A stretch of DNA of 39,479 nucleotides from an uncultured Roseburia sp. (lineage in GTDB: Bacteria; Bacillota; Clostridia; Lachnospirales; Lachnospiraceae): contig CALWHT010000012.1 of the NCBI GenBank assembly GCA_944380515.1, positions 1 to 39,479 of the forward strand, in the 5' to 3' direction. Made by a program: the position numbers and the translations under genes. The notes under the pieces are model-generated. The model saw nothing but the letters and a program-made list of their open reading frames with translations. It was not told where the DNA came from and searched no databases. Below are positions 1 to 15,052 of this stretch, in pieces. Within the stretch, counting starts at the first letter, position 1. Each line of letters starts with the position of its first letter.

Positions 1-2
1 AC

Positions 3-143
3 GAGACGTATCACAGGGCCTGGGAGAATGAGGTGATACAGGAGTTTGCCAATCTGCTGGTCGGGCGCGGCTACGTGGAGAAAAAACGCCGGGGTTTGAG
101 GATTTATTATATGGCGCTTGGCGCGGACTGTGAATGTGAATAG
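3..143 (+). CDS. C-terminal fragment of an unidentified protein
   Basis: An open frame runs from the left edge to a TAG at 141-143 and gives the last 46 residues of a protein whose start lies outside the window. The tail contains a GRGYVEKKRRGLRIYYMAL stretch, a basic turn followed by a beta-like strand, which could be the wing of a winged-helix regulator. That is only a resemblance. The final residues (GADCECE) include two cysteines. I do not recognise the family and assign no function. Confidence 0.45.
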   Translation, partial: ETYHRAWENEVIQEFANLLVGRGYVEKKRRGLRIYYMALGADCECE

Positions 144-276
144 ACAGATGCAAAAATGCCGCTACAATAAGGTAGATTTTTGATTGCAGTTGTTGTAAGA
201 TGAAGGTGGAGGCTGCGTGGAATCCGTCAGGGATTTTACGTTGTGCCCCCAAATGACTGCAAAGGAGAGCGGCGGC

Positions 277-1404
277 ATGAAAAAATCCGTAAAATATCTC
301 AAAATTTTCTGCAATCTCGTTGTGGCGGCACTGGTGATTTTTTGTGTAATATTTGTGCTGCCGAGGGTTCTGGCATACTTTATGCCGTTTGTGGTGGGGC
401 TTGTGCTGTCTCTGATTGCCAATCCGGTAATCAAGTTTCTGGAAAAATGGATTAAGATAAAAAGAAAGTACGGCTTCGTTATGATGATTATTCTGGTCAT
501 CGGCGGAATCGTGCTTATTTGCGATGCGGTCGGTTCGGCTCTGTGGGAAGGAATCCAGAGCTTTATGGAGTATCTGCCGACGATGTACAGCAATGCGGGA
601 ACGGAGCTGATGGAGGCGGGAGCTGGTCTGGAAAAGCTTTTCAGCCGGATTCCCATTCTGGCGGACCTGGACTTTGCAAAGCTGGAAGAAATGATTCAGA
701 ACTTTCTAAACGAATTGATGTCCGGCTCCGGGGAAACGACAATCGTGTTTCTGGAAAACGCGGCCAAGGGAATTCCGAATATATTTGTCAGCTCGATCGT
801 GGGGCTGCTGGCGACGTATTTTTTTATCGTAGACAGGGAAAAATTATTGAAAATGCTCAGACAGCATATTCCGGAATCCGTGCGGGAAAAGTCCGGAACC
901 ATGTACCGTCAGGTTTTAGGCGTTGTGGGCGGATATTTTAAAGCGCAGTTTAAAATTATGGGTGTCATCTATGTAATTCTGCTGATTGGGCTTGTGATGC
1001 TCGATGTGGATTACGCGTGGCTGATTGCCTTTGGCATAGCCCTTCTTGATATGCTGCCCGTGTTTGGGACAGGCACCGTGCTCTGTCCGTGGGCTGTGGT
1101 CAAGCTGTTTTCCGGAAGCTATATGACTGCCCTCGGTATGCTGATTCTTTATGCGGTGACGCTCATCGTCCATCAGCTCATTCAGCCGAAGCTCGTCGGC
1201 GATTCCGTCGGCATGGATCCGTTTGCCGCGCTTTTTTTCATGTATATCGGTTATCGGGTCAGTGGCGTCGCGGGTATGGTATTTGCGATTCCGATTGGGA
1301 TGATTCTGATAAATGTATACCGTGCGGGCGCTTTTGACACTCTGATTTGGTGCATTCGGGAAGTGGTAAAAGACTTTAATGAGTTTCGGCGGCTGCGCCC
1401 ATAG
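277..1404 (+). CDS. AI-2E family transporter, YtvI-like membrane permease
   Basis: A 375-residue polytopic membrane protein. Two hydrophobic segments lie within about residues 10-50 and a third near 65-90. A soluble stretch of roughly 80 residues follows, then a C-terminal membrane block. The conserved AI-2E/PerM motifs DMLPVFGTG and QPKLVGDSVGMDP are present. The spacing and sequence are closest to the sporulation-associated YtvI branch of Firmicutes. Family members are proposed exporters of small molecules or ions, but the substrate of this branch is unknown. The ATG at 277 is preceded by AAAGGAG, whereas an in-frame upstream GTG at 217 lacks a comparable site, so 277 is chosen. The next gene is separated by 127 bp and appears independent. 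Confidence 0.85.
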   Translation: MKKSVKYLKIFCNLVVAALVIFCVIFVLPRVLAYFMPFVVGLVLSLIANPVIKFLEKWIKIKRKYGFVMMIILVIGGIVLICDAVGSALWEGIQSFMEYLPTMYSNAGTELMEAGAGLEKLFSRIPILADLDFAKLEEMIQNFLNELMSGSGETTIVFLENAAKGIPNIFVSSIVGLLATYFFIVDREKLLKMLRQHIPESVREKSGTMYRQVLGVVGGYFKAQFKIMGVIYVILLIGLVMLDVDYAWLIAFGIALLDMLPVFGTGTVLCPWAVVKLFSGSYMTALGMLILYAVTLIVHQLIQPKLVGDSVGMDPFAALFFMYIGYRVSGVAGMVFAIPIGMILINVYRAGAFDTLIWCIREVVKDFNEFRRLRP

Positions 1405-1531
1405 GCAAATCGTACGAAAGTCACAGTTTTTTTGCCATTCTTACGAAATTAAGTAGAAATTTCTTCCAATTTGTTGTAAAATATACTGTGTTGCATAGAA
1501 GGCGGGCAGAAAAGAGAGCATTAGAGGAAAT

Positions 1532-2476
1532 ATGAAAATATCGTTGATTATTCCCTGCTACAACGAGCAGGAGGCTTTGCCGATTTTTTACGGGGAAACG
1601 AAAAAGGTCATGGAATCCATGGCCTGTGATTATGAGCTTATTTTTGTAAATGACGGTTCGAAGGATGGAACGCTGGCGTTGCTAAAGGAGCTGGCGGACG
1701 CAGACGAACATGTATCTTATATCGGATTTTCCAGAAATTTTGGGAAGGAAGCCGCAATGTATGCCGGCTTCTGCAACGCGGGGGGCGATTATGTGGCCGT
1801 GATGGATGCGGACATGCAGGACCCGCCGTCGCTGCTTCCGCAGATGCTTGAGATCCTTGAGACGGGCGAGTACGACAGTGTGGCGACCCGCAGGGTGACG
1901 CGCAAGGGGGAACCGAAGATCCGCAGTTGGTTCGCCAGAATGTTTTACCGCATTATCAATCATATTTCGGACGCGGATATTGTGGACGGTGCCAGGGACT
2001 TTCGGCTGATGAAACGGAGCATGGTGGACGCCATCGTCGCGATGGGAGAATACAACCGATTTTCCAAGGGGATTTTCGGGTGGATTGGTTTCCGCACCTA
2101 TTGGCTGCCGTATGAGAATGTCAACCGGGTGGCAGGAGAGACGAAGTGGAATTTCTGGAAGCTTTTTAAATATGCGATTGACGGCGTGATTAATTTTTCA
2201 CAGGTGCCGTTAAGCATCGCTTCCTGGTTTGGAATGTTTATGACCGTTGTCGCATTTATCGCAGTTTTATTTATTGTGATACGAAAGCTGGTATTCGGAG
2301 ATCCCGTGGACGGATGGGCTTCTACCGTATGCATTATTACGCTGATTGGGGGGATACAGTTATTTTGTATGGGAATCATGGGGCAGTACATTGCCAAGAC
2401 CTATATTGAGGTGAAAAAAAGACCCCATTATATTGTATCGGAAAGTAATATAGATGAAATGGAAAAGATAAAGTAA
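1532..2476 (+). CDS. GtrB/DPM1-like GT2 polyprenyl-phosphate glycosyltransferase
   Basis: A 314-residue family 2 glycosyltransferase. The N-terminal GT-A domain shows IIPCYNEQEALP, the FVNDGSKDGT nucleotide-binding loop and a DADMQD metal motif. Two transmembrane helices follow at about residues 228-256 and 264-288. This is the layout of GtrB and YkcC-type enzymes, which transfer a sugar from a nucleotide donor to undecaprenyl phosphate on the cytoplasmic face. The lipid-linked sugar is then flipped, often by a GtrA protein, and used to decorate surface polymers. A GtrA homologue lies at 11371-11802, so the two may act together although they are not in one operon. AGAGGA precedes the ATG. A terminator follows at 2534-2571. 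The sugar cannot be read from the sequence. Confidence 0.88.
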   Translation: MKISLIIPCYNEQEALPIFYGETKKVMESMACDYELIFVNDGSKDGTLALLKELADADEHVSYIGFSRNFGKEAAMYAGFCNAGGDYVAVMDADMQDPPSLLPQMLEILETGEYDSVATRRVTRKGEPKIRSWFARMFYRIINHISDADIVDGARDFRLMKRSMVDAIVAMGEYNRFSKGIFGWIGFRTYWLPYENVNRVAGETKWNFWKLFKYAIDGVINFSQVPLSIASWFGMFMTVVAFIAVLFIVIRKLVFGDPVDGWASTVCIITLIGGIQLFCMGIMGQYIAKTYIEVKKRPHYIVSESNIDEMEKIK

Positions 2477-2533
2477 GTTGAAAGTCTTGCGTTTCATAGA
2501 ATTTCGTAGAAAATAAATTGATTGAGAGAAGTG

Positions 2534-2571
2534 GCAGGGCTGGACTGAATCCAGACCTGCTTTTTGTTTTT
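2534..2571 (+). terminator. Rho-independent terminator after the GtrB-like gene
   Basis: A hairpin GCAGGGCTGGA / TCCAGACCTGC with a short loop is followed directly by TTTTTGTTTT. It sits 57 bp after the GtrB-like stop and 41 bp before the regulator start, and so separates the two genes. Confidence 0.8.
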
Positions 2572-2612
2572 ACTGTATGGATAAAATTTGCGAAGTAGTT
2601 GGGTGAGAGAAA

Positions 2613-3524
2613 ATGGCAATTTACATGGTAGGCGATTTTATTAGGGAGAAAAGACTGCGTAAGGGGTATACGCAGGAGGAGGTAAGCTTTGGTATCTGCA
2701 CAACGGCATCGTTGTCGAGAATTGAAAACGGGTTGCAGATGCCCGGAAGGTACATGCTGGATAAGCTGATGGAGCGTCTCGGCTACGAAAACAGCGTGTT
2801 TGATATGTTTGTGAGCAAGGAGGACATGGAGCTTTACGAGACGGTGCAGGAGATGGTCCGAAACATCGCCGATGACGATTATGACGAGCTGGAGGTCCAG
2901 ATTGCCAAAATGGAAGAACTGACGCAGAATGCGCCGAAGCTGGAGCAGCAGTATTTGATATTTGCCAAGGGTCAGTTAAAAAAGCATCGGGGCGGGGAGG
3001 CAAAGGAGGTTATGGATTTGTATATGCAGGCAATCCATATCACGCTTCCGGAGTTTGATGGGAAAACGCCGCTTCACCAAAATCTTCTGACGTTCGACGA
3101 GATTACGATTATTAATAATATCGCCATGCAGTATGCAAGAGAAGAAAATTTTGAGGATGCATTGAGGCTTGGTTTCTGGCTGAAAGAATACATGGAAGAA
3201 AAAATGATGGACGGAAAACAGAAGGCTGTAAAATATCCAATGATTGTTTTTAATATGAGTAATTGGCTTGGAAGAGGAGAAAGATTTTCCGATGCTTTAA
3301 AGATGGCTGATACCGGAATTGACTTTTGTATTAAATATGTGAGCTGGCAACAGTTGCCGAAGTTATTGTTTAATAAAGCCTGTGCGTTAGCAGAATTGGG
3401 AAGGAAAGACGAGGCGAAAAAGTTTTTTACACAGTCGGCAGTTCTGTTTGAGTCGACAGGGCAACATGGAAATAAACAGATAACGGTCGACTGGTGTAAA
3501 AACAAATATCAGATTGATATTTAG
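2613..3524 (+). CDS. XRE-family regulator with TPR-like helical domain (Rgg/PlcR-like architecture)
   Basis: A 303-residue protein. Residues about 7-60 form an HTH_3 domain with the pattern REKRLRKGYTQEEV then LSRIENGLQMP. The remaining 240 residues are helical and resemble the tetratricopeptide-type repeat domain of Rgg, PlcR, NprR and TprA proteins. In those families the helical domain binds a small secreted and re-imported peptide and so switches DNA binding. GTGAGAG precedes the ATG. The context fits this idea: a 44-codon gene for a signal-peptide-bearing product lies convergently and overlaps this gene's stop (3521-3655). The second half of the gene is visibly more AT-rich than the first. 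The likely targets are its own region, the peptide gene and perhaps the TIR-KAP unit downstream; that is inference. Confidence 0.85.
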   Translation: MAIYMVGDFIREKRLRKGYTQEEVSFGICTTASLSRIENGLQMPGRYMLDKLMERLGYENSVFDMFVSKEDMELYETVQEMVRNIADDDYDELEVQIAKMEELTQNAPKLEQQYLIFAKGQLKKHRGGEAKEVMDLYMQAIHITLPEFDGKTPLHQNLLTFDEITIINNIAMQYAREENFEDALRLGFWLKEYMEEKMMDGKQKAVKYPMIVFNMSNWLGRGERFSDALKMADTGIDFCIKYVSWQQLPKLLFNKACALAELGRKDEAKKFFTQSAVLFESTGQHGNKQITVDWCKNKYQIDI

Positions 3525-3655
3525 AGGGTTTCAGCAGAGTCGCTCAGGATGAAGCAGGGAGCAATTCCATAATTATCGGCAGTCATCTGGGTCAGGCCGA
3601 AGGAACCTGTAAGCAAGAGTGCGCATAACATTACAGCAAAGATTTTTCTTTTCAT
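3521..3655 (-). CDS. Small secreted peptide (44 aa), candidate pheromone precursor
   Basis: The minus strand encodes 44 residues beginning MKRKIFAVMLCALLLTGSFG, a textbook Sec signal peptide with a basic n-region and a hydrophobic core at residues 5-17. Cleavage after Gly20 or Ala26 would release about 24 or 18 residues, ending ILSDSAETL. The start is supported by GGAGG at 3663-3667, 7 bases upstream. Its stop codon overlaps the stop of the XRE-TPR regulator on the other strand, so the two genes are convergent and inseparable. Regulators of this architecture are commonly paired with short exported peptides such as PapR, SHP or Phr. An alternative is that this is a truncated relic of a larger small-secreted-protein family. 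The coding evidence is good and the pheromone role is inferred. Confidence 0.7.
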   Translation of the reverse strand: MKRKIFAVMLCALLLTGSFGLTQMTADNYGIAPCFILSDSAETL

Positions 3656-3757
3656 TTTTCTACCTCCAGGGTGATACATAATTTTTTTCATTGCGGGCTG
3701 CGTTTGATTCGCAGCTACGTAACGATGAGTTCATCTTAAGGGAAAGAATTAAATTAG

Positions 3758-3803
3758 ACCATTCGATATGGCGTAATTTGCAGGTTACATCATATCGAAT
3801 GGT
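3758..3803. repeat. Perfect 13-bp inverted repeat, operator or hairpin
   Basis: ACCATTCGATATG at 3758-3770 is repeated exactly in inverse orientation at 3791-3803. An inner GTAA/TTAC pair (3773-3776 and 3785-3788) extends the possible stem. It lies between the secreted-peptide gene and the TIR gene, 102 bp upstream of the peptide start codon and 104 bp upstream of the TIR start codon. It could be the operator of the XRE-TPR regulator, an RNA hairpin in either leader, or the remains of a small mobile repeat. The flanks are AT-rich; TATAAT reads on the minus strand at 3824-3829 with no good -35. Confidence 0.7.
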
Positions 3804-3906
3804 TATTTTTACATATGTAGTATATTATATGATTGATAAAAAGCAGGCCGTACCCTGCCGGCAGGCGGCGTGGGGGTAGCAGAAGAAAAGAGGAGTAAAC
3901 AGGAAA

Positions 3907-4497
3907 ATGATTTTGACAAGCGGTTATTTAAGAGCGTCGGCGAAAACAAACAATTTGAATGAGAAAGCAAAACAGGAGCGTGTTCGAAAACGGAATGAGG
4001 CCTTAAACAAGAAAAAGGGCAGGTATGATATTTTCCTGTCCAATAATTTTCTGGGCGGTGAGGAGCTGTTTGCATTGGTAAGATTGTTCAATGAATCGGG
4101 CTATTCCGTGTATACGGACTGGCAGGACGAAAAAACAAATCAGCCGGACATTACGGCGGACGCCGCGAGAAAGCTGAAAACTGGGATGAACCGCTGTAAG
4201 GGGCTTTTGTATATGACTGCGGAAAGCAAGGCGGCATCCGGCTGGTGCCCGTGGGAGCTGGGATATTTTGACGGGGCCAGCCGGGGACGGTGCTGTGTGT
4301 TCCCGATTTTGAAGGAGCCGCAGGTTTCCTTTGAGGGCGAGGGCTATCTGGGGATTTATTCTTACCTGGGTTATAATTTGCAGGACACCCTCGGAAACTG
4401 GGATTTCTGGGTGCATAAGCCGTGCGGGGAGCGCGTTATGCTCTCGAAATGGCTGGCGCATGAGCAGCCGCTTTGGGAGAAAACAATGAGAATTTAG
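3907..4497 (+). CDS. TIR-domain protein, putative NAD-consuming defence component
   Basis: A 196-residue protein with a basic, helical extension of about 38 residues and then a TIR domain from residue 40. The domain shows YDIFLSNNFLG (strand A and loop), FNESGYSVYTDW, GLLYMTAESKAASGW and WELGYFDG. Glu117 in the PWELGY motif aligns with the catalytic glutamate of NAD-cleaving TIR domains. Prokaryotic TIR proteins of this type hydrolyse NAD or convert it to cyclic ADP-ribose signals in Thoeris and related systems. AGGAG lies 11 bases before the ATG. The KAP NTPase gene begins 86 bp later on the same strand, suggesting one operon. The TIR-family call is strong. The activity and the defence role are inferred from family and neighbour. 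Confidence 0.85.
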   Translation: MILTSGYLRASAKTNNLNEKAKQERVRKRNEALNKKKGRYDIFLSNNFLGGEELFALVRLFNESGYSVYTDWQDEKTNQPDITADAARKLKTGMNRCKGLLYMTAESKAASGWCPWELGYFDGASRGRCCVFPILKEPQVSFEGEGYLGIYSYLGYNLQDTLGNWDFWVHKPCGERVMLSKWLAHEQPLWEKTMRI

Positions 4498-4583
4498 CGG
4501 ACATGGCACAGGAGGGATAAGCCGCGAGGGGGCGGCGTCCCCGTTTGGGGTCATACAAAAGCAGAAGAATTGAGGTGCACCTT

Positions 4584-7040
4584 ATGAGAACTGTTAAACC
4601 CATCCTGACCAAACTGATATACGCGTTTCTGATTTCCGCCGTGCTGTTCCAGACGATTGCCTTGCCAGTAAGCTTTTACCTTCTGGTTCTTGTGGCGGTA
4701 TGGCTTTTGCTGCTGCTGTATTACGGGAACAAAAAGAACGGCAGCTGGTTTGTTGGAGTATTTGCGATAAATGTCGGAAATCTTGCCGCCTATGTTGCGG
4801 TGAAGGCGTTGGGCGGCGGCTCCCTGACCGCGGCGCTCAAAAACGGACTGCATATTTGTCTGCTGGTGATTTACGGGGCGGAGCTCCTGTGGGCGGCATA
4901 TCTGCTGTTTTCGGCCCGTGGGAGCAAGCCGCGGGAACCGGAGCAGACCTGTCTCCCCGCAAGAAAATACGATGTGGAGAGAATCTTGTACTATTTGGAG
5001 TGCGTGGATATGCTCGGCATCAATGCCGCCTGGGGCAGCGGAAAAACCTTTGTGCTGGAACAGCTGGTGAAGCGGCCGGAGATACAAAGCGCCTATGAAA
5101 TCATTTGGATAGACCTGCTGACCTGCAATATGGACGAAATCGAGCAGCTATTGTTAAACGAGCTGGAACGCATCCTCACCCGCCACGGGATTTTTTCGAA
5201 ATATGCGGGAAAGCTGCGCCGGATGCTGGAAAAAGGAACCTTTTTAAAACAGATGCAGAACCTTCTGTTCCCGCAGAGCACCTCACTGTCCGAAGCCTTT
5301 GCGGGCTTTGGGAAGGATGTGCGTAAGCTGGAAAAAGTGATTCTTGTTATTTATGAGGATTTGGACCGAATCTCAAATCCGGACACCGTCAAAAAATTAT
5401 TTTCTATTTCCGAAAAGCTGGCAGGCGGGAAAATAAAAGTTATTTATCAGTATGAAGAAGAAAACCTAAAGAAGCTGGGGTTTGAAAGGGATTATCTGGA
5501 AAAATATATACCGTATATCGTGAACCTTACGGAAATGAAGCTGCAGGACATTGCCGCGGGCTTGTGGGAGGAATTAAACATGGCTTCGGTGGGGGTGGAG
5601 CCAAAGGACATTGAGCATATACAGGAAGAAAGCAGAGTGTGGGAGGCAAACGGCGTGCTTGAGGCGCTCGGACTGAACGGGGAAATTTCCATCCGCATTC
5701 CCAATGTGAGCGTGCGCAAGGTAAAGGAGTTTCTGACGGAGCTTAAGGTATTTCTTCGGGAAAATCCAAGGTATCGGGACAAAGCGTATCAAAAGACGGT
5801 CATCAACTTCTTGTTCCTGAAGCATTTTTATTATGAAAAATACCGGATGCTCACCATTGAGCATGGGCTTGTGGAGACAATGACCTTTCAGTGGAAAGAT
5901 AAGGAATATACGCTGCCGCAGCTTCTGGCGGAGCGGGAGCGGCAAAAAGAAAATAGCTCGGAGGGGATTTCGGAGGAGAATTTGCATGAAATATTCCGGC
6001 AGCGGGAAAATGTCGAAAGCCTGGCGCTTCTGATGTGGTTTGGCTATCATTTCGATGTCCGTGAGCCGGAGAGAAACCGGGAGAGCATTGCAAACGAAGC
6101 TGTATCGAACCTATTAAGACGGAATGAAAACGAGCGGAAGGACCATATTATCTGGAATATGCTGTGCAGCGGGAAATCCGAATACAGCGACATGGAACAC
6201 GTCGTGAACCGGATGGCGGAGGAGGTGCTTGCAGAGGACACGAAAGAAGCGCGCAAAACCGCCTGGCGTAAGCTTTTGGAGGATATGTCTCACGAAACGG
6301 AGAGATGGCGCGGCACCCGGACCATTTTCCGGTGGGGCCTGGATGACTTCCTGCCTGTTTTTCAGGCGTTCCGTGTATGTGGGAGAAGTCCCGAGGAATG
6401 GATAAAGCTGCTGGATTTTTATTTTGAGGTGCGGTGCCCCGAAAAGGTGTCTGTGGAGCTGACAGAGCTTTGGAATTATTGCGACATCAGTTCAAGGAAG
6501 GTATACATGAAGATCATTTCCCAGTTTAATCAGTTGGAACGCCGCGGAAATATGAACCGGCAGAAGGGTTATCGGAAATTTTTAAAAACCTGTTTACGGA
6601 AAGCGCTGGAATGGGATTCTCATTACAGCTTTGATTCCTGGAAGCTGGAATTTGAAAATGAATTTGACGATCATGTGGAGTGGATTGTCGGTGTGCTCGG
6701 AGAACTGGCAGATAGGCTGCGGCAGACATGCGATAAGGAATATCTGATTACATCCGGCAAAAAAGACCTCGCGCAGATAATCGTATTTATCGAAAATAAT
6801 ATGGCGATGCTCACCCTTTCGGAGGAAGAAACGGAGCGAAGACCGCAGTGGAGATGGGAAACCAAAAGCGTGCGCGAGAACCAGGCGGACTATGATTATC
6901 TGGTGTCTCTTATGGACGAGCCGGAAAAATTTAAGGAGCGGCTGGAGGAGTGCTATCTTGCCGAAAAAATCAATCCGCATGAGGCGGCGGAACTGCAAAG
7001 GAGCTTTTCGGAGCGCCGCAAATCCCCTGAATCAAATTGA
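4584..7040 (+). CDS. Membrane-anchored KAP-type P-loop NTPase, TIR partner
   Basis: An 818-residue protein. Four hydrophobic segments lie at about residues 8-27, 30-47, 54-75 and 89-110. A KAP-like NTPase domain follows with Walker A AAWGSGKT (lysine 154) and Walker B VILVIYEDLDR (252-262), where KAP proteins typically have a DDLDR motif. The C-terminal 550 residues are charged and helical without a recognised domain. KAP NTPases occur in phage exclusion (PifA) and in other conflict systems. In the canonical form the membrane helices are inserted between the Walker motifs, whereas here they precede Walker A. The ATG at 4584 follows GAGGTG, and a TTG at 4545 has no ribosome site, so 4584 is chosen. 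The gene is probably co-transcribed with the TIR gene. The product may sit at the membrane and sense or execute the response. Confidence 0.75.
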   Translation: MRTVKPILTKLIYAFLISAVLFQTIALPVSFYLLVLVAVWLLLLLYYGNKKNGSWFVGVFAINVGNLAAYVAVKALGGGSLTAALKNGLHICLLVIYGAELLWAAYLLFSARGSKPREPEQTCLPARKYDVERILYYLECVDMLGINAAWGSGKTFVLEQLVKRPEIQSAYEIIWIDLLTCNMDEIEQLLLNELERILTRHGIFSKYAGKLRRMLEKGTFLKQMQNLLFPQSTSLSEAFAGFGKDVRKLEKVILVIYEDLDRISNPDTVKKLFSISEKLAGGKIKVIYQYEEENLKKLGFERDYLEKYIPYIVNLTEMKLQDIAAGLWEELNMASVGVEPKDIEHIQEESRVWEANGVLEALGLNGEISIRIPNVSVRKVKEFLTELKVFLRENPRYRDKAYQKTVINFLFLKHFYYEKYRMLTIEHGLVETMTFQWKDKEYTLPQLLAERERQKENSSEGISEENLHEIFRQRENVESLALLMWFGYHFDVREPERNRESIANEAVSNLLRRNENERKDHIIWNMLCSGKSEYSDMEHVVNRMAEEVLAEDTKEARKTAWRKLLEDMSHETERWRGTRTIFRWGLDDFLPVFQAFRVCGRSPEEWIKLLDFYFEVRCPEKVSVELTELWNYCDISSRKVYMKIISQFNQLERRGNMNRQKGYRKFLKTCLRKALEWDSHYSFDSWKLEFENEFDDHVEWIVGVLGELADRLRQTCDKEYLITSGKKDLAQIIVFIENNMAMLTLSEEETERRPQWRWETKSVRENQADYDYLVSLMDEPEKFKERLEECYLAEKINPHEAAELQRSFSERRKSPESN

Positions 7041-7065
7041 AAAATCCCCTATTCTCTGGTATAAT
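7037..7065 (+). promoter_or_regulatory. Sigma-A promoter with extended -10
   Basis: TTGAAA at 7037-7042, a 17-base spacer and TATAAT at 7060-7065, with TG at 7057-7058 forming an extended -10 box. The -35 overlaps the stop codon of the KAP NTPase gene. It should drive the surface-protein gene at 7114. Confidence 0.85.
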
Positions 7066-7113
7066 CAGGAAAAAGGTCAAAAAGTGCGGATATGAGAATG
7101 GGAGGAAGGAATA

Positions 7114-10100
7114 TTGAAAAAAAGGTGTCTTGCGGTATTGCTTGCTATATGTGTAACATTAGGTACTGTTTTATGTCCGATGGAGGGTACTGTTGCGTAT
7201 GCCGCGGAAACGGGAGAAACGACGGAGACGGACGATACAGATACGGTATCCACAGAGGATGATTCCACGGAAATTCTTTCCATGGAAATTCTTTCCACAG
7301 AAATTTTTTCCACGGAAAGCGATATCACCGAAAATAATTCTGCGGAAAACGATACCATGGAAAATAATTCCACGGAAACGGTTGACGTGGATGAGACGGA
7401 GAAAGTGACCGGGGAAACAGCGGAGACCGAGACCGGGGAAACGACGGAAACAGCGGAGACCGAGACCGTGGAAGCGACGGAAACAGCGGAGACCGAGACC
7501 GTGGAAGCGACAGAAACGGCAGAGCCTGAGACAGAAGAACTGTCTGAGCAGCCGGAAACAGAGCTGGTATTGCCTACGGGACTTATGCCGATGGAGACAA
7601 AAACAGTTTCCGATATTGCCGTGGAGGATGTCTATGAGATTTCCGACGATGGAATCGAAGTATATGCTGATTTAAAATCTGCGGTGGTATACGATTCCGA
7701 GTGGGACAAATACAGCAGCTATTATTTTTATAATCAGATGGATGAAGCGCAGAAGGAATACTGGGATGCGTTAAATGCAGTATGTTCCAAATATCTTACG
7801 ACGCAGGCGGATGCAGCTTATAATGCGACGTATGACGCATATTATACCGATTTTGTGGCATCGACGGAGCTTAGCAGAAGCGAGATGGATACGGTATACT
7901 ATATTTTCAAATATTCCAATCCGCAGTACTACTTTTTGAACAACTATAAATGGAGCACCGGAAGCGGAGCACTGGCGTTTGGTGTATACTCTGCGTTTGG
8001 GGACGGTTCCGCGCGCGCTGCGGCGACAAGCGCTGTAAAACAGCAGGTTGACGCATGGCAGAGCCAGATTAATGCGTGCACGACGGACGAAGCAAAGGTT
8101 CGTCTGATCCATGACCTCATTGTAAATAAAGTAGAATATAACTGGGATCTTTATAACAGCAATTTTGCGGACGAGGATAGTCAGTATTCGCAGTCGGCAT
8201 ATAGTGTTTTTTGTACGGATTTGACGGTCTGTGCGGGGTATGCGCAGGCGTTTGAGATGATGTGCAACGGTTCCGGCATCGACGCGGTCGCGGTGACAAG
8301 CGCGGGGCATGAGTGGAATAAAGTAAGGATCAACGATTCCTGGTATAACGTGGATTGTACCTGGGCGGATCAGAGTACCTGTATTTACTATAAATACTTT
8401 GAGCGAAGTGATTATTATTATGACGTTAATGACCAGGAACAAAACCATGTCGAGGAAAGCTTCTGGGAGGGGTATTTGCCGACCTGTTCGCTTGACTCCG
8501 GCGCATCGGATTTTGCGCCGGGTACGCTGCCTGCAATTACGCGGACCACGGCGGCGCCCGTTATTACACAGGCGGCAAATGCAGGCGGCTGTACAGTGAC
8601 GATTACCAGCGCAACGCCCGGCGCGTTCATTTATTATACGCTCGACGGTACAGCGCCATCAGCGGCTTTCTCCAAAAGCAGCCTTTATAAGGGAAGCTTC
8701 CAGGCACCCGGCGGTGTGACGGTTCGGGCGATTGCGGTGCGGGATACTTACTGGGACAGCAGTGCGGTAAGTGAGCAGCTTAATTCCAATATTTATTATC
8801 AGATTACCTACGAGGGAAACGGCGCGACTTCAGGCAGCATGAGCGCACAGTCTGTCGTTGCGGGAGGTTCTGCATCGCTTGCGTCCAATGCGTTTCAAAG
8901 AACGGGATATACCTTTTCGGGCTGGAACACCAGGGCCGACGGAAGCGGTACCGCTTATTCCGATGGACAGGTTATTTCGGGGATTACAGGCAACCTTACG
9001 CTCTACGCCCAGTGGAAGCTGACAAACTATACCATCACCTATCATCTTGACGGCGGGGAAAACGGCAGCAACCCTTCGACCTATACCTACACGACAGCGC
9101 TCATCACGCTCAAGGACGCGACAAGGACGGGCTATGATTTTGCGGGCTGGTATTTCGACAGCGCGTACACAATGAGAGTGACGCAAATTGCAAGTGGAAG
9201 CATTGGGGACAAGACGCTGTACGCGAAGTGGACGCCTCACGAATATAAGATTACCTTCAACGGAAACGGAAGCACCAGCGGAAAAATGAGCTCCATGACC
9301 GGGAGGAAATACGGAACCAGCTACACCCTGACCGCGAATGCCTTTAAGAAAAAAAGCTATACCTTCACGGGCTGGAATACAAAGAAGGACGGAAGCGGGA
9401 AGAGCTATTCCAACAGGGAGAAGGTAAAGAACCTGACCTCAAAGGACGGCGGAAGTGTGACGCTTTACGCGCAGTGGACGAAAACAAAATACAAAATCAC
9501 CTATAAGCTGAACAGCGGAAAGAACAACAGCAAAAACCCGTCGACCTATACCTATACGACAAGCACCATCACCCTCAAAAATCCTACAAGAAAGGGCTAT
9601 GATTTTGCGGGCTGGTATTCTGACAGCAAATATAAGAAAAAGGTGACGAAGATTAAAAAGGGAAGTACCGGAAACAAGACGCTGTACGCGAAGTGGACCC
9701 CTCACAAATATAAGATTACCTTCAACGGAAACGGAAGCACCAGCGGCAAGATGAGCGCGATGACGGGGAAGAAATACGGAACCAGATACACCCTGACTGC
9801 GAACGCCTTTAAGAAAAAAGGCTATACCTTCACGGGCTGGAATACAAAGAAGGACGGAAGCGGGAAGAGCTACTCCAACAAGGAAAAAATAAAGAATTTA
9901 ACCTCAAAGAGCGGCGGAAGTGTGACGCTTTACGCGCAGTGGAAGAAAACGAAATACAAAATCACCTATAAGCTGAACAGCGGAAAGAACAACAGCAAAA
10001 ACCCGTCGACCTATACCTATACCACGAAAACCATTACGCTGAAAAAACCGACAAAAGCCGGATACAGATTTGTCGGCTGGTATACCGACAGCAAGTACAA

Positions 10101-10173
10101 AAATAAGGTGACGAAGATAAAAAAAGGAAGTACCGGAAAAATTACACTGTATGCAAAATGGAAAAAAGTATAA
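7114..10173 (+). CDS. Secreted transglutaminase-like protein with InlB/Listeria-Bacteroides repeats
   Basis: A 1019-residue exported protein. A signal peptide occupies residues 1 to about 31. A strongly acidic Thr/Glu-rich region follows (32-155), with repeated ETAETETVEATETAE-like units. The transglutaminase-like domain has Cys373 in VCAGYAQ, His399 in GHEWN and Asp414 in NVDCTWAD, a complete Cys-His-Asp triad. A chitobiase-type C-terminal-like module lies at about 484-556. Six repeats with the GW...G...Y and LYAxW pattern fill 563-1019. The last four repeats are lysine-rich. Such proteins process or cross-link peptides at the cell surface, and the repeats probably bind the wall or ligands. 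No LPXTG anchor is present. The start is TTG with GGAGG upstream. The gene has its own promoter. Confidence 0.88.
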   Translation: MKKRCLAVLLAICVTLGTVLCPMEGTVAYAAETGETTETDDTDTVSTEDDSTEILSMEILSTEIFSTESDITENNSAENDTMENNSTETVDVDETEKVTGETAETETGETTETAETETVEATETAETETVEATETAEPETEELSEQPETELVLPTGLMPMETKTVSDIAVEDVYEISDDGIEVYADLKSAVVYDSEWDKYSSYYFYNQMDEAQKEYWDALNAVCSKYLTTQADAAYNATYDAYYTDFVASTELSRSEMDTVYYIFKYSNPQYYFLNNYKWSTGSGALAFGVYSAFGDGSARAAATSAVKQQVDAWQSQINACTTDEAKVRLIHDLIVNKVEYNWDLYNSNFADEDSQYSQSAYSVFCTDLTVCAGYAQAFEMMCNGSGIDAVAVTSAGHEWNKVRINDSWYNVDCTWADQSTCIYYKYFERSDYYYDVNDQEQNHVEESFWEGYLPTCSLDSGASDFAPGTLPAITRTTAAPVITQAANAGGCTVTITSATPGAFIYYTLDGTAPSAAFSKSSLYKGSFQAPGGVTVRAIAVRDTYWDSSAVSEQLNSNIYYQITYEGNGATSGSMSAQSVVAGGSASLASNAFQRTGYTFSGWNTRADGSGTAYSDGQVISGITGNLTLYAQWKLTNYTITYHLDGGENGSNPSTYTYTTALITLKDATRTGYDFAGWYFDSAYTMRVTQIASGSIGDKTLYAKWTPHEYKITFNGNGSTSGKMSSMTGRKYGTSYTLTANAFKKKSYTFTGWNTKKDGSGKSYSNREKVKNLTSKDGGSVTLYAQWTKTKYKITYKLNSGKNNSKNPSTYTYTTSTITLKNPTRKGYDFAGWYSDSKYKKKVTKIKKGSTGNKTLYAKWTPHKYKITFNGNGSTSGKMSAMTGKKYGTRYTLTANAFKKKGYTFTGWNTKKDGSGKSYSNKEKIKNLTSKSGGSVTLYAQWKKTKYKITYKLNSGKNNSKNPSTYTYTTKTITLKKPTKAGYRFVGWYTDSKYKNKVTKIKKGSTGKITLYAKWKKV
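9241..10170 (+). repeat. Tandem 465-bp repeat inside the surface protein gene
   Basis: Bases 9241-9705 and 9706-10170 are two copies of a 155-codon unit, each holding two InlB-type repeats. Long stretches are identical, for example the segments beginning at 9481 and 9946. The high nucleotide identity points to a recent duplication. The copies diverge mainly at their 3' ends. Confidence 0.85.
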
Positions 10174-10201
10174 AATACGATAGTAATATATGCATAAATG
10201 G

Positions 10202-10210
10202 TGTTATAAT
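10202..10210 (+). promoter_or_regulatory. Extended -10 promoter for the DUF3048 gene
   Basis: TGTTATAAT gives a perfect -10 hexamer at 10205-10210 with an upstream TGn extension. No convincing -35 is seen at the right distance. It lies 51 bases before the chosen TTG start. Confidence 0.6.
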
Positions 10211-10260
10211 AAAGAAGCAGTGCCCTTTGGCATAAAAATATACAGTGAGAGGTATTGAGT

Positions 10261-11349
10261 TTGAAAAAGAGAATGGTTTTATTGGCAGCGACGTTGTCGA
10301 TGGCGGCTTTTATGGCGGCATGCGGCGACAAAAATGCTGACGAGGCAGCAGTGGATAATGCTGCGGGGACAGAATCGGTTTTAGGGACGGAGCAGAACGA
10401 GAGCGAGGAGATACTTCCGGAGGGCATGTACCGCAGTGAGCTTACGAATGAGCTGATTGACGAGAGTCTCAAAAATCAGCGGCCAATCGCGGTTATGGTG
10501 GATAATGAGTCAATTGCGCTGCCGCATTACGGGCTGACACAGGCGGATGTGGTCTATGAGATGATGAACAGCACCTTAAACGGCAGAATTACCCGGTTTA
10601 TGGTTTTGGTGAAGGACTGGGAGAAAATTGAGCAGCTGGGAAGCATAAGGAGTGTGCGGCCGACAAACGTGTTGATTGCGTCTGAGTGGAACGCGGTTAT
10701 CTGCCATGACGGAGGTCCTTTCTATGTGGACGCATACATGGCGGACCCGAGCGTGGATAATTTCAGCGGAACCTTTTCCCGTGTGGATAACGGCAAGCCG
10801 AGGGAATATACCGAATACATCCTTCCGGGAGATTTGGAGAAGAACTTTGAAAACTCAGGCGTTTCCAGAGAATATACCTCCTATTACGAGGGACCTCATT
10901 ACCAGTTTGCAAACGAGGACAACCCGGTGGATTTGACGGGGCAGGCGAACGTCATTGAAGCGAACCTCGTAGATTTGCCGTTCCCGCATAACGAATCCCT
11001 TTTGGAGTACAATGAGGACGACGGACTTTACTATTATTCGGAGTACGGCGAGCCGCATTTGGATCCGGGCAATGATAACCAGCAGCTTGCATTCAAAAAT
11101 CTTCTGATTCAGAGCTGCGGTTATACGCAGTATGACGAACACGGCTACATGATTTTTGACTGTGTGAGCAAGGGTTATGGCTATTATGTCACCAACGGCA
11201 AGGCAATCTATGTATCCTGGGAGAAGACAAGCATGACCTCCCCGACACGTTATTACGACATGGACGGCAATGAGATTACGCTGAACACAGGCAAGACCTA
11301 TGTCGGCTTTGTTCCGGTGGATGACTGGGAGGATCTGGTAATCGAATAA
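10261..11349 (+). CDS. DUF3048 (YerB-like) lipoprotein
   Basis: A 362-residue exported lipoprotein. The signal peptide ends in the lipobox MAAC with the lipidated cysteine at residue 21, followed by an acidic Asp/Glu/Ala-rich linker. The DUF3048 N-terminal part contains RPIAVMVDN, QADVVYEM and the GSIRSVRPTN signature. The C-terminal part has YVSWEKTSMTSPTRYYD and a GKTYVGFVP end typical of DUF3048_C. The family is a conserved extracytoplasmic lipoprotein of Firmicutes with unknown biochemical function. AGAGG lies 8 bases before the TTG at 10261; an in-frame TTG at 10255 is too close to that site. The gtrA-like gene follows by 21 bp and is probably co-transcribed. Confidence 0.88.
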   Translation: MKKRMVLLAATLSMAAFMAACGDKNADEAAVDNAAGTESVLGTEQNESEEILPEGMYRSELTNELIDESLKNQRPIAVMVDNESIALPHYGLTQADVVYEMMNSTLNGRITRFMVLVKDWEKIEQLGSIRSVRPTNVLIASEWNAVICHDGGPFYVDAYMADPSVDNFSGTFSRVDNGKPREYTEYILPGDLEKNFENSGVSREYTSYYEGPHYQFANEDNPVDLTGQANVIEANLVDLPFPHNESLLEYNEDDGLYYYSEYGEPHLDPGNDNQQLAFKNLLIQSCGYTQYDEHGYMIFDCVSKGYGYYVTNGKAIYVSWEKTSMTSPTRYYDMDGNEITLNTGKTYVGFVPVDDWEDLVIE

Positions 11350-11370
11350 GCAGAGAACAGGAAAAGACAG

Positions 11371-11802
11371 ATGATAGAACAAATAAAAACACTGCTGGAA
11401 AAGTATAAAGCGATTATCCTCTACGGAATTTTCGGTGTGCTTACAACGCTTATCAATATCGTGGTCTATGAGGCCTTTTATCGGTATGTCGGCTGGAGCA
11501 ATGTCGTGAGCAATATCGTCGCCTGGGTTGCGGCGGTATTGGTTGCGTTTGTCACAAATAAGCTGTGGGTCTTCGAGAGCAAAACCACAGAGAAAAAAGC
11601 GCTTATGTTTGAGATTACATCCTTTTTTGGGTGCAGGCTCGCGACCGGGGTTCTGGATTTGGCGATTATGTATGTGGCTGTGGACGAGATGGCGTTAAAC
11701 AGCACATTGATGAAATGTATTTCCAATGTGATTGTCATTATTGTCAATTATATAGCCAGCAAACTTCTTATTTTTAAAAACAGTGGAAATGCCAAGGCAT
11801 AA
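11371..11802 (+). CDS. GtrA family membrane protein
   Basis: A 143-residue protein with four predicted transmembrane helices and the GtrA signatures YGIFGVLTTLINIVVYEAF and AFVTNKLWVF. GtrA proteins are proposed flippases for undecaprenyl-phosphate-linked monosaccharides and work with GtrB transferases, one of which lies at 1532-2476. The protein has the usual family length. It ends the unit that begins with the DUF3048 lipoprotein, and a strong terminator follows immediately. The biochemical role remains inferred from the family. Confidence 0.85.
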   Translation: MIEQIKTLLEKYKAIILYGIFGVLTTLINIVVYEAFYRYVGWSNVVSNIVAWVAAVLVAFVTNKLWVFESKTTEKKALMFEITSFFGCRLATGVLDLAIMYVAVDEMALNSTLMKCISNVIVIIVNYIASKLLIFKNSGNAKA

Positions 11803-11804
11803 AA

Positions 11805-11846
11805 GAATCCGTTATCAGACAAAGGCTGATAGCGGATTCTTTTTTT
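11805..11846 (+). terminator. Rho-independent terminator after gtrA-like gene
   Basis: GAATCCGTTATCAG and CTGATAGCGGATTC form a 14-bp stem (one G-T pair) around a 7-base loop, followed by a run of T. It starts 3 bases after the stop codon and separates the lipoprotein-GtrA unit from the polysaccharide locus. Confidence 0.92.
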
Positions 11847-11988
11847 GGAACTTTTGGGAAAGTAAAAATTTCCGTTTCAAAACACCCTGTTTTGCGGTAA
11901 AATAAAGATGACTGAAAATTGCGGCACTGCGTTCGTTCCGGCAAAACGGGAACTGGCGGAGGCCGCGGCTTGGATTGGAGACGAAATT

Positions 11989-12693
11989 GTGAAGAAACAA
12001 AATGCAGCAGACAGGGAGTATGATGTGCCGGAGCTGATACGCCTGAATTTAAAGGTGTGGTGGCTGATGATTCTTTTTGCTCTGGCGGGGGCGGCGTTTC
12101 TTGGCGGGTATAAATACCTGTCGAACCGTTCCTATGTATCGGAAAAAAATTATGAAGAAGTATACCGGGTGACGGCGTCCCTGTATGTCAGGGAATATAA
12201 CGACGAAGCCGCGGCGGTGCGGATTGGGACACTGATTAAGACGGCGGACAGCCGCAGCGCCTGGCAGAGGTTTTTGGAACGGACAGGCTATGATTTGGAA
12301 TATGTAGGCTATCAGCAGCTGTTTGACCTGCTCGAGGGGGAGTCCTCGGACATCGTGACGGTGTATGTGGGCTACCCGGCGGAATACGGAGGCTTCTCGA
12401 TTCCGGACGAGGAGGCGGCGCTTGTATTTGCGGATGATGTGATAGCGGCAATCGACGAGACGATGCAGGAAATGGTGGGAGAGGACTGCTTTGATATTCT
12501 GGATGAGCCGTACGTGGCGGAGCCGACGAGAAGGCAGCTCGCATATGCGCCCTCCGAGGAGGAATTCCGGGAGGAAATCTTAAAGGCAGCGACTGCCGGT
12601 CTGGTGTTTGGTGTGATTGTGGAGGTGACCCTTTATACCGGCTTTTTGCTGCTTCGCGGCAAGGGCGTAAGGGAGCCGGAGAAAGAGGGCTGA
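11989..12693 (+). CDS. Wzz/YveK-like chain-length determinant protein
   Basis: A 234-residue protein with two membrane helices, one at about residues 22-42 and one near the C-terminus (about 203-223), enclosing an extracytoplasmic alpha/beta region. This is the topology of Wzz, CpsC and YveK polysaccharide co-polymerases, which set chain length. The sequence match is weak, and the call depends on topology and on the Wzy-like gene only 3 bases downstream. The GTG at 11989 has TTGGAG 8 bases upstream. An in-frame ATG at 11908 overlaps a likely promoter (TAAAAT at 11898-11903) and has no ribosome site, so the GTG is preferred. This is the first gene of a four-gene unit. Confidence 0.65.
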   Translation: MKKQNAADREYDVPELIRLNLKVWWLMILFALAGAAFLGGYKYLSNRSYVSEKNYEEVYRVTASLYVREYNDEAAAVRIGTLIKTADSRSAWQRFLERTGYDLEYVGYQQLFDLLEGESSDIVTVYVGYPAEYGGFSIPDEEAALVFADDVIAAIDETMQEMVGEDCFDILDEPYVAEPTRRQLAYAPSEEEFREEILKAATAGLVFGVIVEVTLYTGFLLLRGKGVREPEKEG

Positions 12694-12696
12694 CGG

Positions 12697-13884
12697 ATGG
12701 ACAAAATAAAGGCGTTTTGCAGGGACAGGGATTGGGAGGCCGTCGGAGAGCTTTCCTTTTATGCCTACTTTGCAATCAACATATTGATGAAGGCATTCTC
12801 CTATGACCACGGGGATAACATATATAAATGCTTTTTTTATACGGCGATCATCTTTTGGATCATAAAGCTTTTGACGACCAGGTACACGCTGCGGGAAGTG
12901 TTCTGGATTGCGCTTCTGCTGTCGGTGGGCGTGATGCTGTCGGTGGTTACAAGGCAGAATATGTGGCTTCTTTCCATTATGACCGTCATAGGGATGAAAA
13001 ATTGCCGTTTTTGGCTGCTGGTCCAGCTTGCGGTTTCTATACGGACGCTTTCGCTCATCGTGCTGACCGTCGGGGCGGCGGCTGGCATTTACGATATCGG
13101 TCTTCAGACCACGCTCGATTCCGACTATGTAGAGACGAAGGTTTACGGCTTTGCGATGGGGGAGCCGAATACCGCCTATCTGACCGTTTTTCTGGCATTG
13201 ATGCTGCTGCTGTACTACTATTATGACCGGCTCAATATCATATGGTTTGTGGGAACCTCGGCTGTGGCGCTGTTTTTTTATAAATTTACGCTCTGCCGGA
13301 CCGGAGTACTGGTGTTTTTCTTCTGCTGGGCGCTCATTCTGTTTGAAAAATGGGTGAAGTGGAGGAAAGCCATGGCGGTACTGGCGCTGTCCGTCCCGGT
13401 CGGCGGCATCTTCAGCCTGGTGATGATGCTCCTTTACGACGGGGAGAACGCGGTCATGAGCCAGATTAATCATCTGGTTTCCGGAAGGATTTACATTATG
13501 AATACCTATTTTAAGGATCAGGGGATTTCCCTGTTTCCGCGGACCCAGGAGGTTTTTTACACAAGCTATCACGGGCTGATTGACAACAGCTATATGTTCG
13601 TGTTCCTGTATGGCGGGGTATTGGTGGCGCTTTTTTTCTTCTGGATTATCTGCCTGACACTGTACCGCCTGTATCGGAACGGTTTTTATAAAGAGCTTGT
13701 CATGACAGGGACAATGGCGCTCTACGGCGTGCTTGAGCAGTTTGTGCTGAACGGGTTTATGAACATATTTCTGCTGCTCTGCGGCATCCTGCTCTATCCG
13801 TCCCTGCTGTCTGCGATTGAGCGTCCGGCGGGGGAGGGGCGCGGCAGGCACGTCCGGCGGAAGGAAGTCCCGGCGAAAAAATAA
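12697..13884 (+). CDS. Wzy-like polysaccharide polymerase
   Basis: A 395-residue protein with about ten to eleven hydrophobic segments and a longer extracytoplasmic loop containing SGRIYIMNTYF and the HGLIDNSYMFV motif. This loop pattern, an SGR followed some 40 residues later by xDNSYxxxxxxxG, is typical of Firmicute O-antigen/capsule polymerases. The enzyme would join undecaprenyl-PP-linked repeat units at the outer face of the membrane. Sequence identity in this family is low, so the call rests on topology, motif and position between a Wzz-like gene and a glycosyltransferase. AGAGGG precedes the ATG, and the gap from the previous gene is 3 bases. The C-terminus is a basic tail. Confidence 0.75.
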   Translation: MDKIKAFCRDRDWEAVGELSFYAYFAINILMKAFSYDHGDNIYKCFFYTAIIFWIIKLLTTRYTLREVFWIALLLSVGVMLSVVTRQNMWLLSIMTVIGMKNCRFWLLVQLAVSIRTLSLIVLTVGAAAGIYDIGLQTTLDSDYVETKVYGFAMGEPNTAYLTVFLALMLLLYYYYDRLNIIWFVGTSAVALFFYKFTLCRTGVLVFFFCWALILFEKWVKWRKAMAVLALSVPVGGIFSLVMMLLYDGENAVMSQINHLVSGRIYIMNTYFKDQGISLFPRTQEVFYTSYHGLIDNSYMFVFLYGGVLVALFFFWIICLTLYRLYRNGFYKELVMTGTMALYGVLEQFVLNGFMNIFLLLCGILLYPSLLSAIERPAGEGRGRHVRRKEVPAKK

Positions 13885-13907
13885 TTTGACAGATTGGAAA
13901 CAAAGAG

Positions 13908-15029
13908 ATGAAAAAAACGATTTACGTGCTGAATCAGAGACAGGGGGAGACCTGTGACGCGGCGGGAAAAGCCATGCGGGACGTATTTGCGGTTCTTGCC
14001 CAAAAAGGGGCAAGGGTTATCTGGAGCGTGCCAAAGGGGTGCAGCCGTTATCTGAAGATTTTGGATTTGCCGTATCTTTTTATGTTTTTGCTGCTGCGGG
14101 TGGGAAAAGGGGACGTTGTATTTTATTCGATTCCCGAAAATTACCTGAAAATCAGGCTGCTGAAGCTGGTGCGTGGGATAAAAAAATACACCATGCTCTG
14201 TTTTATCAACGATTTGAACGAATTCCGTTATGACGGGACGCCGCAGGGAAGCGGGGAGAACCCCGGAAACGGGAAGGAGCTTTCGGCGCTTATGGCGGCG
14301 GATAAAATCCTTGTACCGAACCAAAACACGGCGGAAATGTTAAGAAAGGCGGGCGTGGCGTCGGAGCTGATTCCGGTAGGCATCTGGGATTACCTGATGA
14401 CGGAGGAGCAGAGCCGGGCACTGGCACAGGCGCAGGAGAAAGCGCAGCGGGAGAAAATGGCGCGGGGCGCGGCTCCTGCGGGGGAACCGGAGACGGCGGA
14501 TGCGCCAGCAACGGAGCAGGTCAGAATCGCGTTTGCGGGCAATCTGAACAAGTCGGAATTTTTATCGGTGATGGAGGTGCCGGCGGGAATCAGTATGGAG
14601 CTTTGGGGCAGGCTGGATGAGGAAAAAGAAAAAACGCTCCCGTCCGGCTGCCATTATCACGGCGTGCTTTCCTCCGATGAGGTTCCGCTTGCCGTCTGTG
14701 CGATGGATTACGGACTCGTTTGGGACGGAGCGGGCAGGGACGGGATAAAGGGAGGACTGGGGGAATACCTTCGGTATAACAATTCCCATAAATGCGCGCT
14801 TTATCTGGCTTCCGGCATTCCGGTGATCGTGTGGAGCGAGTCCGGAATGGCGCGTTTCGTATCGGAACACGGGTGTGGGCTTATGATTGAGCGGCTCGGA
14901 GAGCTGGAGGAAAAAATCAAAAACGCGGATTACAAAGAATTAAAGCGGCGGGCGCTTGCGGCCGCGCCGAAGCTTCGGGCAGGCTATTACCTGGGAAAGG
15001 CGCTTGATACGGCATTGAACGATCAGTAG
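13908..15029 (+). CDS. Gtf3/beta-1,6-galactofuranosyltransferase-like glycosyltransferase
   Basis: A 373-residue GT-B-like protein. The N-terminal half has ENYLKIRLLKLVRGIKKY and a DLNEFRY segment. The C-terminal half has the family's donor-binding signature YLRYNNSHKCALYLASGIPVIV. This pattern is shared by Gtf3-type glucosyltransferases and by proteins annotated as beta-1,6-galactofuranosyltransferases of Firmicutes. A stretch rich in Ala, Gln and Glu at about residues 165-205 looks like a flexible insert between the two lobes. The enzyme probably extends the lipid-linked repeat unit on the cytoplasmic side. It is 23 bases from the Wzy-like gene and 23 from the acyltransferase. Donor and acceptor are not determined. 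Confidence 0.75.
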   Translation: MKKTIYVLNQRQGETCDAAGKAMRDVFAVLAQKGARVIWSVPKGCSRYLKILDLPYLFMFLLLRVGKGDVVFYSIPENYLKIRLLKLVRGIKKYTMLCFINDLNEFRYDGTPQGSGENPGNGKELSALMAADKILVPNQNTAEMLRKAGVASELIPVGIWDYLMTEEQSRALAQAQEKAQREKMARGAAPAGEPETADAPATEQVRIAFAGNLNKSEFLSVMEVPAGISMELWGRLDEEKEKTLPSGCHYHGVLSSDEVPLAVCAMDYGLVWDGAGRDGIKGGLGEYLRYNNSHKCALYLASGIPVIVWSESGMARFVSEHGCGLMIERLGELEEKIKNADYKELKRRALAAAPKLRAGYYLGKALDTALNDQ

Positions 15030-15052
15030 GATACAAAAGATGGAGGAGAGCT

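Follow-up and report, generated by a model that had tools for sequence, protein, structure and literature searches.

A membrane KAP NTPase beside a diverged ThsB-like TIR protein in an uncultured Roseburia: a candidate defence gene

The KAP-type nucleoside triphosphatase (NTPase) PifA of the F plasmid causes phage exclusion, and Tmn-type NTPases can reportedly cooperate with other systems. Tmn itself is a single KAP NTPase that inhibits T2, P1, phiVi, and phiX, with a mechanism described as unexplored in a paper that also cites Aravind 2004, the title of which gives the KAP family an NTPase domain carrying inserted segments (PMC11846954). Among TIR-containing systems, the effectors of Thoeris are given as SIR2 (type I), TM-macro (type II), and caspase-like proteins (type IV) (PMC12847820). 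Here we describe a locus in the window, a 39,479-nucleotide stretch of DNA from an uncultured Roseburia sp. that forms contig C12 (CALWHT010000012.1) of a 3.07-Mb genome, in which a TIR gene is followed by a gene for a membrane KAP NTPase. On balance, we think that the latter is a solo defence gene of an unnamed KAP family, lying beside a diverged ThsB-like TIR gene, and that the two do not make a fixed two-gene system. The literature searched holds no description of a TIR plus KAP system, which is weak evidence of absence given the low coverage of subscription papers; one paper counts KAP NTPases and TIR domains among the targets of diversity-generating retroelements and does not present the two as a pair of genes.

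Two same-strand open reading frames (ORFs) are present where an initial annotation of the window had placed them, with the following features:

3907..4497, + strand: divergent ThsB-type TIR protein, 196 amino acids (PADLOC ThsB models, solved structure 8btn_B)
4255..4257, + strand: codon of Glu117, the putative catalytic glutamate (Glu in 16/16 aligned relatives, in the window and in the sister genome G338)
4554..4555, no strand: position of an 8003-bp integrase-bearing insert in G338 (alignment to the sister genome)
4584..7040, + strand: membrane KAP NTPase, 818 amino acids (PF07693, family alignments)
4593..4910, + strand: four N-terminal transmembrane-like segments, residues 4-109 (hydrophobicity, AlphaFold model)
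5025..5048, + strand: Walker A motif AAWGSGKT (W150, G151, G153, and K154 invariant in 18 rows)
5352..5369, + strand: Walker B motif YEDLDR (E258, D259, D261, and R262 invariant in 18 rows)

The neighbourhood of the two genes is not conserved. A profile of the TIR family detected such a gene in 2 of the 28 KAP loci, both being the one locus in the window and in its sister genome, and a KAP profile detected KAP in 0 of the 15 TIR loci. Likewise, a single-sequence TIR search of the ORFs of the window and L003-L024 returned the window TIR only (loci are labelled L, genomes G). The count leaves aside L003 and L004 (repeats of L015 and L016 with equal scores), L044 (same contig as L023), and the distant L049. 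The 28 loci amount to fewer independent cases; near copies are L008/L009/L018, L011/L015, and L013/L014, the KAPs of L018, L023, and L024 are partial, L043 is a weak match, and the KAP tree of 20 rows has near copies of its own. L005 and L128 appear to be the same genome, the TIR being reached by L128 only.

The locus is also split in G338. The alignment of this genome to the window runs from 1 to 4555 and resumes from 4554, with the 8003-bp insert in between, and both the TIR and the KAP frames are open despite their 8-kb separation. Counted from the TIR, the genes in the insert encode a tyrosine recombinase (PF00589, 1.6e-43), an aminotransferase-like protein (by eye, which here and below marks names given by inspection), a SIR2-nSTAND protein of 1196 amino acids, and a product that matches an FkbM methyltransferase. 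With these counts and the split locus, a conserved TIR-KAP operon was rejected. The initial annotation had put forward a two-gene system and named the lack of a conserved neighbourhood in other genomes as grounds for refutation; no such neighbourhood was found, and this proposal is largely refuted. The insert (L040, 3284-11286), with its integrase and SIR2-nSTAND gene, is in its own right a possible small mobile defence element.

The KAP ORF opens at TTG 4545 by mechanical call, and its likely start, judged by eye, is ATG 4584, which gives 818 amino acids and the 86-bp gap from the TIR gene that had been annotated. The description of a membrane KAP NTPase with four transmembrane-like segments also held: the KAP_NTPase family (PF07693) matches at 26.8 bits, above its cut-off of 20, the Walker A and B motifs start at residues 148 and 257, respectively, and four hydrophobic segments lie ahead of Walker A, with none between the two motifs. 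Among 16 aligned KAPs, ten have at least four segments before Walker A, four have three, L013 has two, and L007, the ORF of which is shorter than the others, has one; a single hydrophobic stretch between Walker A and B is seen in L006, L017, and L022 (score 1.64-1.8, threshold 1.6). An AlphaFold model built on an 18-row alignment has a mean predicted local distance difference test score (pLDDT) of 75.9 and a predicted template modelling score of 0.62, and it places helices at the N-terminal segments with low confidence (pLDDT 52-69 in ten-residue blocks, residues 1-110). A sequence search of solved structures gave none close to KAP (best E 0.16). Against G338, the ratio of nonsynonymous to synonymous substitutions (dN/dS) is 0.178 for KAP and 0.147 for TIR, both indicative of purifying selection. 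As they also have homologues elsewhere, neither gene is a chance ORF.

The relatives of KAP follow a variety of genes, and those listed with a gap in bp are on the same strand as KAP. For example, in L042 (G327) a JetD gene ~30 bp upstream closes a Wadjet JetA2B2C2D2 set at 4912-15371 (best PADLOC E values 1.2e-133 to 0). In other loci the upstream gene encodes a PIN_12 protein (Treponema L010, 14 bp), an HsdS-like protein (by eye; Treponema L020, 12 bp), a Fic protein with a helix-turn-helix (HTH) domain (L013, 131 bp), DUF6765 (L012, 165 bp; this locus also has SIR2_2 further downstream), or proteins without a Pfam match of 300 (L016, 17 bp), 531 (L015, 218 bp), and 193 amino acids (L006, 176 bp). 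The L021 KAP lies 88 bp downstream of a glycan-type gene in what looks like a glycan region (both by eye). McrBC-like genes (by eye; PADLOC reports a type II restriction enzyme match) and DUF1643 are found further upstream in L050, and an nSTAND protein is encoded downstream of KAP in L053 and ~1 kb upstream in L019. No partner is recognisable by eye in L008, L011, and L022, and no enzyme gene lies directly upstream of KAP in these loci or in L019; among L008, L011, L021, and L022 there are also KAPs whose neighbours, by eye, have no apparent link to defence. Different upstream partners fall on separate branches of the KAP tree, in which several deep nodes are weak (0.52-0.75). The defence role that had been proposed earlier is thereby plausible, drawn as it is from the neighbours of relatives.

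Two observations can be added on these loci. L010 and L020 hold closely related Treponema KAPs near restriction-like genes (by eye), and a PIN gene between the HsdS-like gene and KAP is present in the former and absent in the latter. L016 encodes, ~1.6 kb downstream of KAP, a 495-amino-acid protein with an SpbK-like TIR (6795-8282, PADLOC 4.9e-59).

The two families are sparsely distributed. With its own genome counted throughout, relatives of KAP occur in 6/62 genomes of the genus (two of them weak or partial), 3/299 of the family, and, at E 1e-20, 3/391 of the class and 2/398 of the phylum, one class genome carrying a broken copy; relatives of TIR (E 1e-3) occur in 3/62 genus and 4/397 family genomes. 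Close copies within the genus are confined to the window genome and G338 (TIR 91%, KAP 94%). A scan of a species-genome collection with two short peptide patterns, which limit its recall, gave 20 KAP loci in Lachnospiraceae, other Clostridia, Halanaerobium, Propionispira, Treponema, and Fibrobacter. In L051 (G642, 7685-9849) the KAP gene is broken into several pieces. A phage-borne origin of KAP was rejected, no relative being present in 50,697 phage records; a first scan of a viral contig collection gave no KAP relative and a second gave one distant KAP (L049). Plasmid-borne KAP was likewise rejected, with 2 of 72,556 plasmid records, both opened, showing partial matches at 26-28% identity.

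The surroundings of the two genes in the window are these:

217-1404: ytvI-like gene
1532-2476: PgfS-like glycosyltransferase (pgfS)
2613..3524, + strand: HTH and TPR regulator, RNPP-type, 303 amino acids (HTH_3 2e-8, RNPP_C 6.8e-7)
about 2477..7113, + strand: block of HTH, TIR, and KAP genes between pgfS and the transglutaminase gene (flanks adjacent in G303)
7114-10173: transglutaminase protein with List-Bact repeats
3' of the transglutaminase gene: DUF3048, then GtrA

Both the window and G338 carry the HTH, TIR, and KAP genes between pgfS and the transglutaminase gene. In G303 (L120), a transglutaminase match starts ~26 bp after pgfS, with no HTH, TIR, or KAP gene between; hence the three genes look like an inserted block of ~4.6 kb common to both genomes. 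The pgfS and DUF3048 genes are adjacent in G301, G318, G302, and G355, and other genes lie between them in G325, G347, and G348, and because the flank contents differ in this way among the genus genomes the site is variable. The low frequency of KAP (0.5-1% of genomes) and the inserted block fit accessory defence genes. Composition gives no foreign signal, the GC content of TIR (0.50) and KAP (0.49) being like that of the neighbours. The HTH-TPR regulator has a dN/dS of 0.10 against G338. The rest of the window is largely a surface-glycan region, with two acyltransferases, an asparagine synthase, and a nucleotidyltransferase among the 10 proteins scanned. The transglutaminase protein is large, with six List-Bact repeat matches, and a promoter-like site (7037-7065, 11/12 consensus matches) lies ahead of its gene.

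The TIR protein has no Pfam match at E 0.1. It matches seven PADLOC ThsB models (best PDLC00422, E 4.5e-38, residues 6-192), and the solved TIR 8btn_B is matched with E 1.5e-26, or 2.2e-55 by a 7-row profile; the earlier call of a TIR with a catalytic-type glutamate, Glu117 in PWELGY, is thus borne out and its type is ThsB. In a staphylococcal system with two TIRs a Phe faces the catalytic Glu (PMC12578639), and Phe43 and Glu117 are retained in the window protein and in 16/16 aligned relatives. These include the distant row L133_4842, a TIR of the second type, which was dropped from the pairing profile. The His and Asp of 16/16 relatives are Asn46 and Gly50 in both the window and G338, which also share Gln79 (Arg in 13/16 relatives), Ala86 (Thr in 15/16), Gly93 (Arg in 14/16), and Gly146 (Glu in 15/16). 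As residues conserved among relatives are changed, cleavage of nicotinamide adenine dinucleotide (NAD) is not to be assumed, although Glu117 is kept. The best reading of the sequence is that of a probable diverged ThsB-family protein. A fold model of TIR built on a 3-row alignment was of poor quality (pLDDT 41.9) and was set aside.

The relatives of this TIR keep varied company. In 10/15 TIR loci, phmmer with three queries detects a further TIR that is of a different type, to which come L114 (by annotation) and L130 (an ORF by eye); the second TIR of L034 matches PDC-M50B. SIR2 genes stand beside TIR relatives in L131 and L135 (annotated) and in L033 and L034 (by eye), a caspase in L114, and TPR genes in L115 and L133 (annotated) and L130 (by eye). 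In L117 (Priestia), neither a second TIR nor a known effector is annotated. A viral contig (L129, 5992-7641) encodes a TIR, a 117-amino-acid PDC-M50A protein, and a second TIR, a Thoeris-like module. A TIR relative occurs in 71 plasmid records, 11 of which were opened. The window genome has no match at E 0.01 to ThsB_TIR (PF08937), SIR2_2 (PF13289), or caspase (PF00656), models that for PF13289 and PF00656 match 2/14 and 1/14 control genomes, respectively; TM-macro was not searched and the SIR2-SLOG model was not run.

In the reading that we favour, every step of function is inferred. The KAP NTPase would sense a product of infection or membrane damage. Its AAA-like core and its large, helical C-terminal part would let it oligomerise on ATP, and its N-terminal helices would then disturb the membrane or block phage growth, as with PifA and Tmn. 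It would spread as a unit and come to lie downstream of diverse genes, including several for defence. The TIR would be a sensor or an NAD enzyme that has at this locus no second TIR and none of the SIR2, caspase, TPR, or small-membrane genes that accompany most of the relatives examined. Several points weigh against this reading. The evidence for defence is all from neighbourhood, and some KAP relatives, like the window itself, have surface-glycan or housekeeping surroundings. The pairing test is based on few independent loci (~20 KAP rows and 15 TIR loci). The two genomes with the inserted block both carry HTH, TIR, and KAP in it, the window genome offers the TIR no SIR2_2, ThsB_TIR, or caspase partner, and a consensus scan of the 86-bp gap gives no promoter or terminator, though such a scan is weak (7 promoter matches across the region against 6.5 in shuffles).

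A tentative alternative is a lineage-specific Thoeris-like system in which the TIR detects phage and KAP is the membrane effector that replaces SIR2, caspase, or TM-macro, the signal being perhaps an ADP-ribose messenger or direct contact. The TIR is of the ThsB family, the relatives of which sit with genes as varied as SIR2, caspase, TPR, and the 117-amino-acid PDC-M50A protein; KAP is the nearest candidate effector in a genome without the matches named above, and shares the inserted block. A diffusible messenger would, moreover, tolerate the 8-kb split. However, no second independent TIR-KAP case exists in the 28 and 15 loci counted, KAP is found without this TIR in other lineages, and in the TIR the His and Asp of all 16 relatives are changed, together with residues of 13-15 of them. 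In a wider form, which we regard as doubtful to a like degree, a TIR without the second TIR and the usual effectors of its relatives would signal, by messenger or direct contact, to the membrane KAP, and KAP at large would be an add-on effector that Wadjet, restriction, PIN, Fic, and TIR systems have each gained independently at the 3' end of their operons.

It is improbable that KAP is instead a membrane oligomerising sensor that activates a swappable upstream enzyme (TIR, PIN, Fic, or others), in the manner of a split STAND or RADAR system. Different enzyme genes do lie 14-131 bp upstream of KAP in several lineages, and in a staphylococcal system one TIR senses the capsid and recruits another, which makes the signal (PMC12578639). 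A Foldseek search of the PDB with the KAP model returns AAA and STAND ATPases, including Avs5 and Avs3, with RdrA of RADAR as the best (E 3.3e-6, 869 columns). However, the RdrA match shows class and not kinship, because its TM-scores are low (0.21-0.28, near 0.26) and its root-mean-square deviation large (15-22 A). Moreover, Wadjet and type I restriction work without KAP, and the KAPs of L008, L011, L019, and L022 have no such enzyme gene. The weakest explanation, a membrane stress or surface-polysaccharide role with the TIR adjacent by chance, draws on the glycan region around pgfS and on L021 (glycan-like by eye), and is most improbable in view of KAP relatives in or beside Wadjet, PIN, SIR2, nSTAND, and restriction-like genes (the last by eye) and of the low frequency and inserted block.

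The wider interest lies in a coherent membrane KAP family that the PADLOC models for PifA and QatA miss and that is found downstream of genes of the Wadjet, PIN, Fic, restriction-like, and TIR kinds. Should KAP give protection by itself, it would be a new defence made of one gene; should it depend on the gene upstream, unrelated systems would have a plug-in membrane effector in common. With the TIR one can ask whether a member of the ThsB family that retains its Glu but has other conserved residues altered can stay under selection.

Compared with known systems, the locus resembles Thoeris in its ThsB-family TIR with Phe43 and Glu117, and differs in that the TIR adjoins KAP, has changed conserved residues, and lies in a genome lacking matches to SIR2_2, caspase, and ThsB_TIR (TM-macro not included in the search). 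PDC-M50 is approached through L129, where the PDC-M50A protein follows a TIR relative, and no KAP belongs to PDC-M50 as seen there. PDC-S20 and KAP have a short Walker A stretch in common (25 residues, E 2.7e-4), and RdrA of RADAR, the PDB entry that comes closest to the KAP model in structure, gives a weak global fold match. PifA and QatA are likewise KAP-type NTPases in PADLOC; at E 0.1 the KAPs of the window, L042, L010, L050, and L006 match neither model, whereas both hit the distant L049 protein (PifA 2e-33, QatA 4.8e-12). Tmn differs, by description, in having two unusual transmembrane domains where the window KAP has four segments before Walker A, and is like it in being a single KAP NTPase with membrane segments, in Tmn one with antiphage activity.

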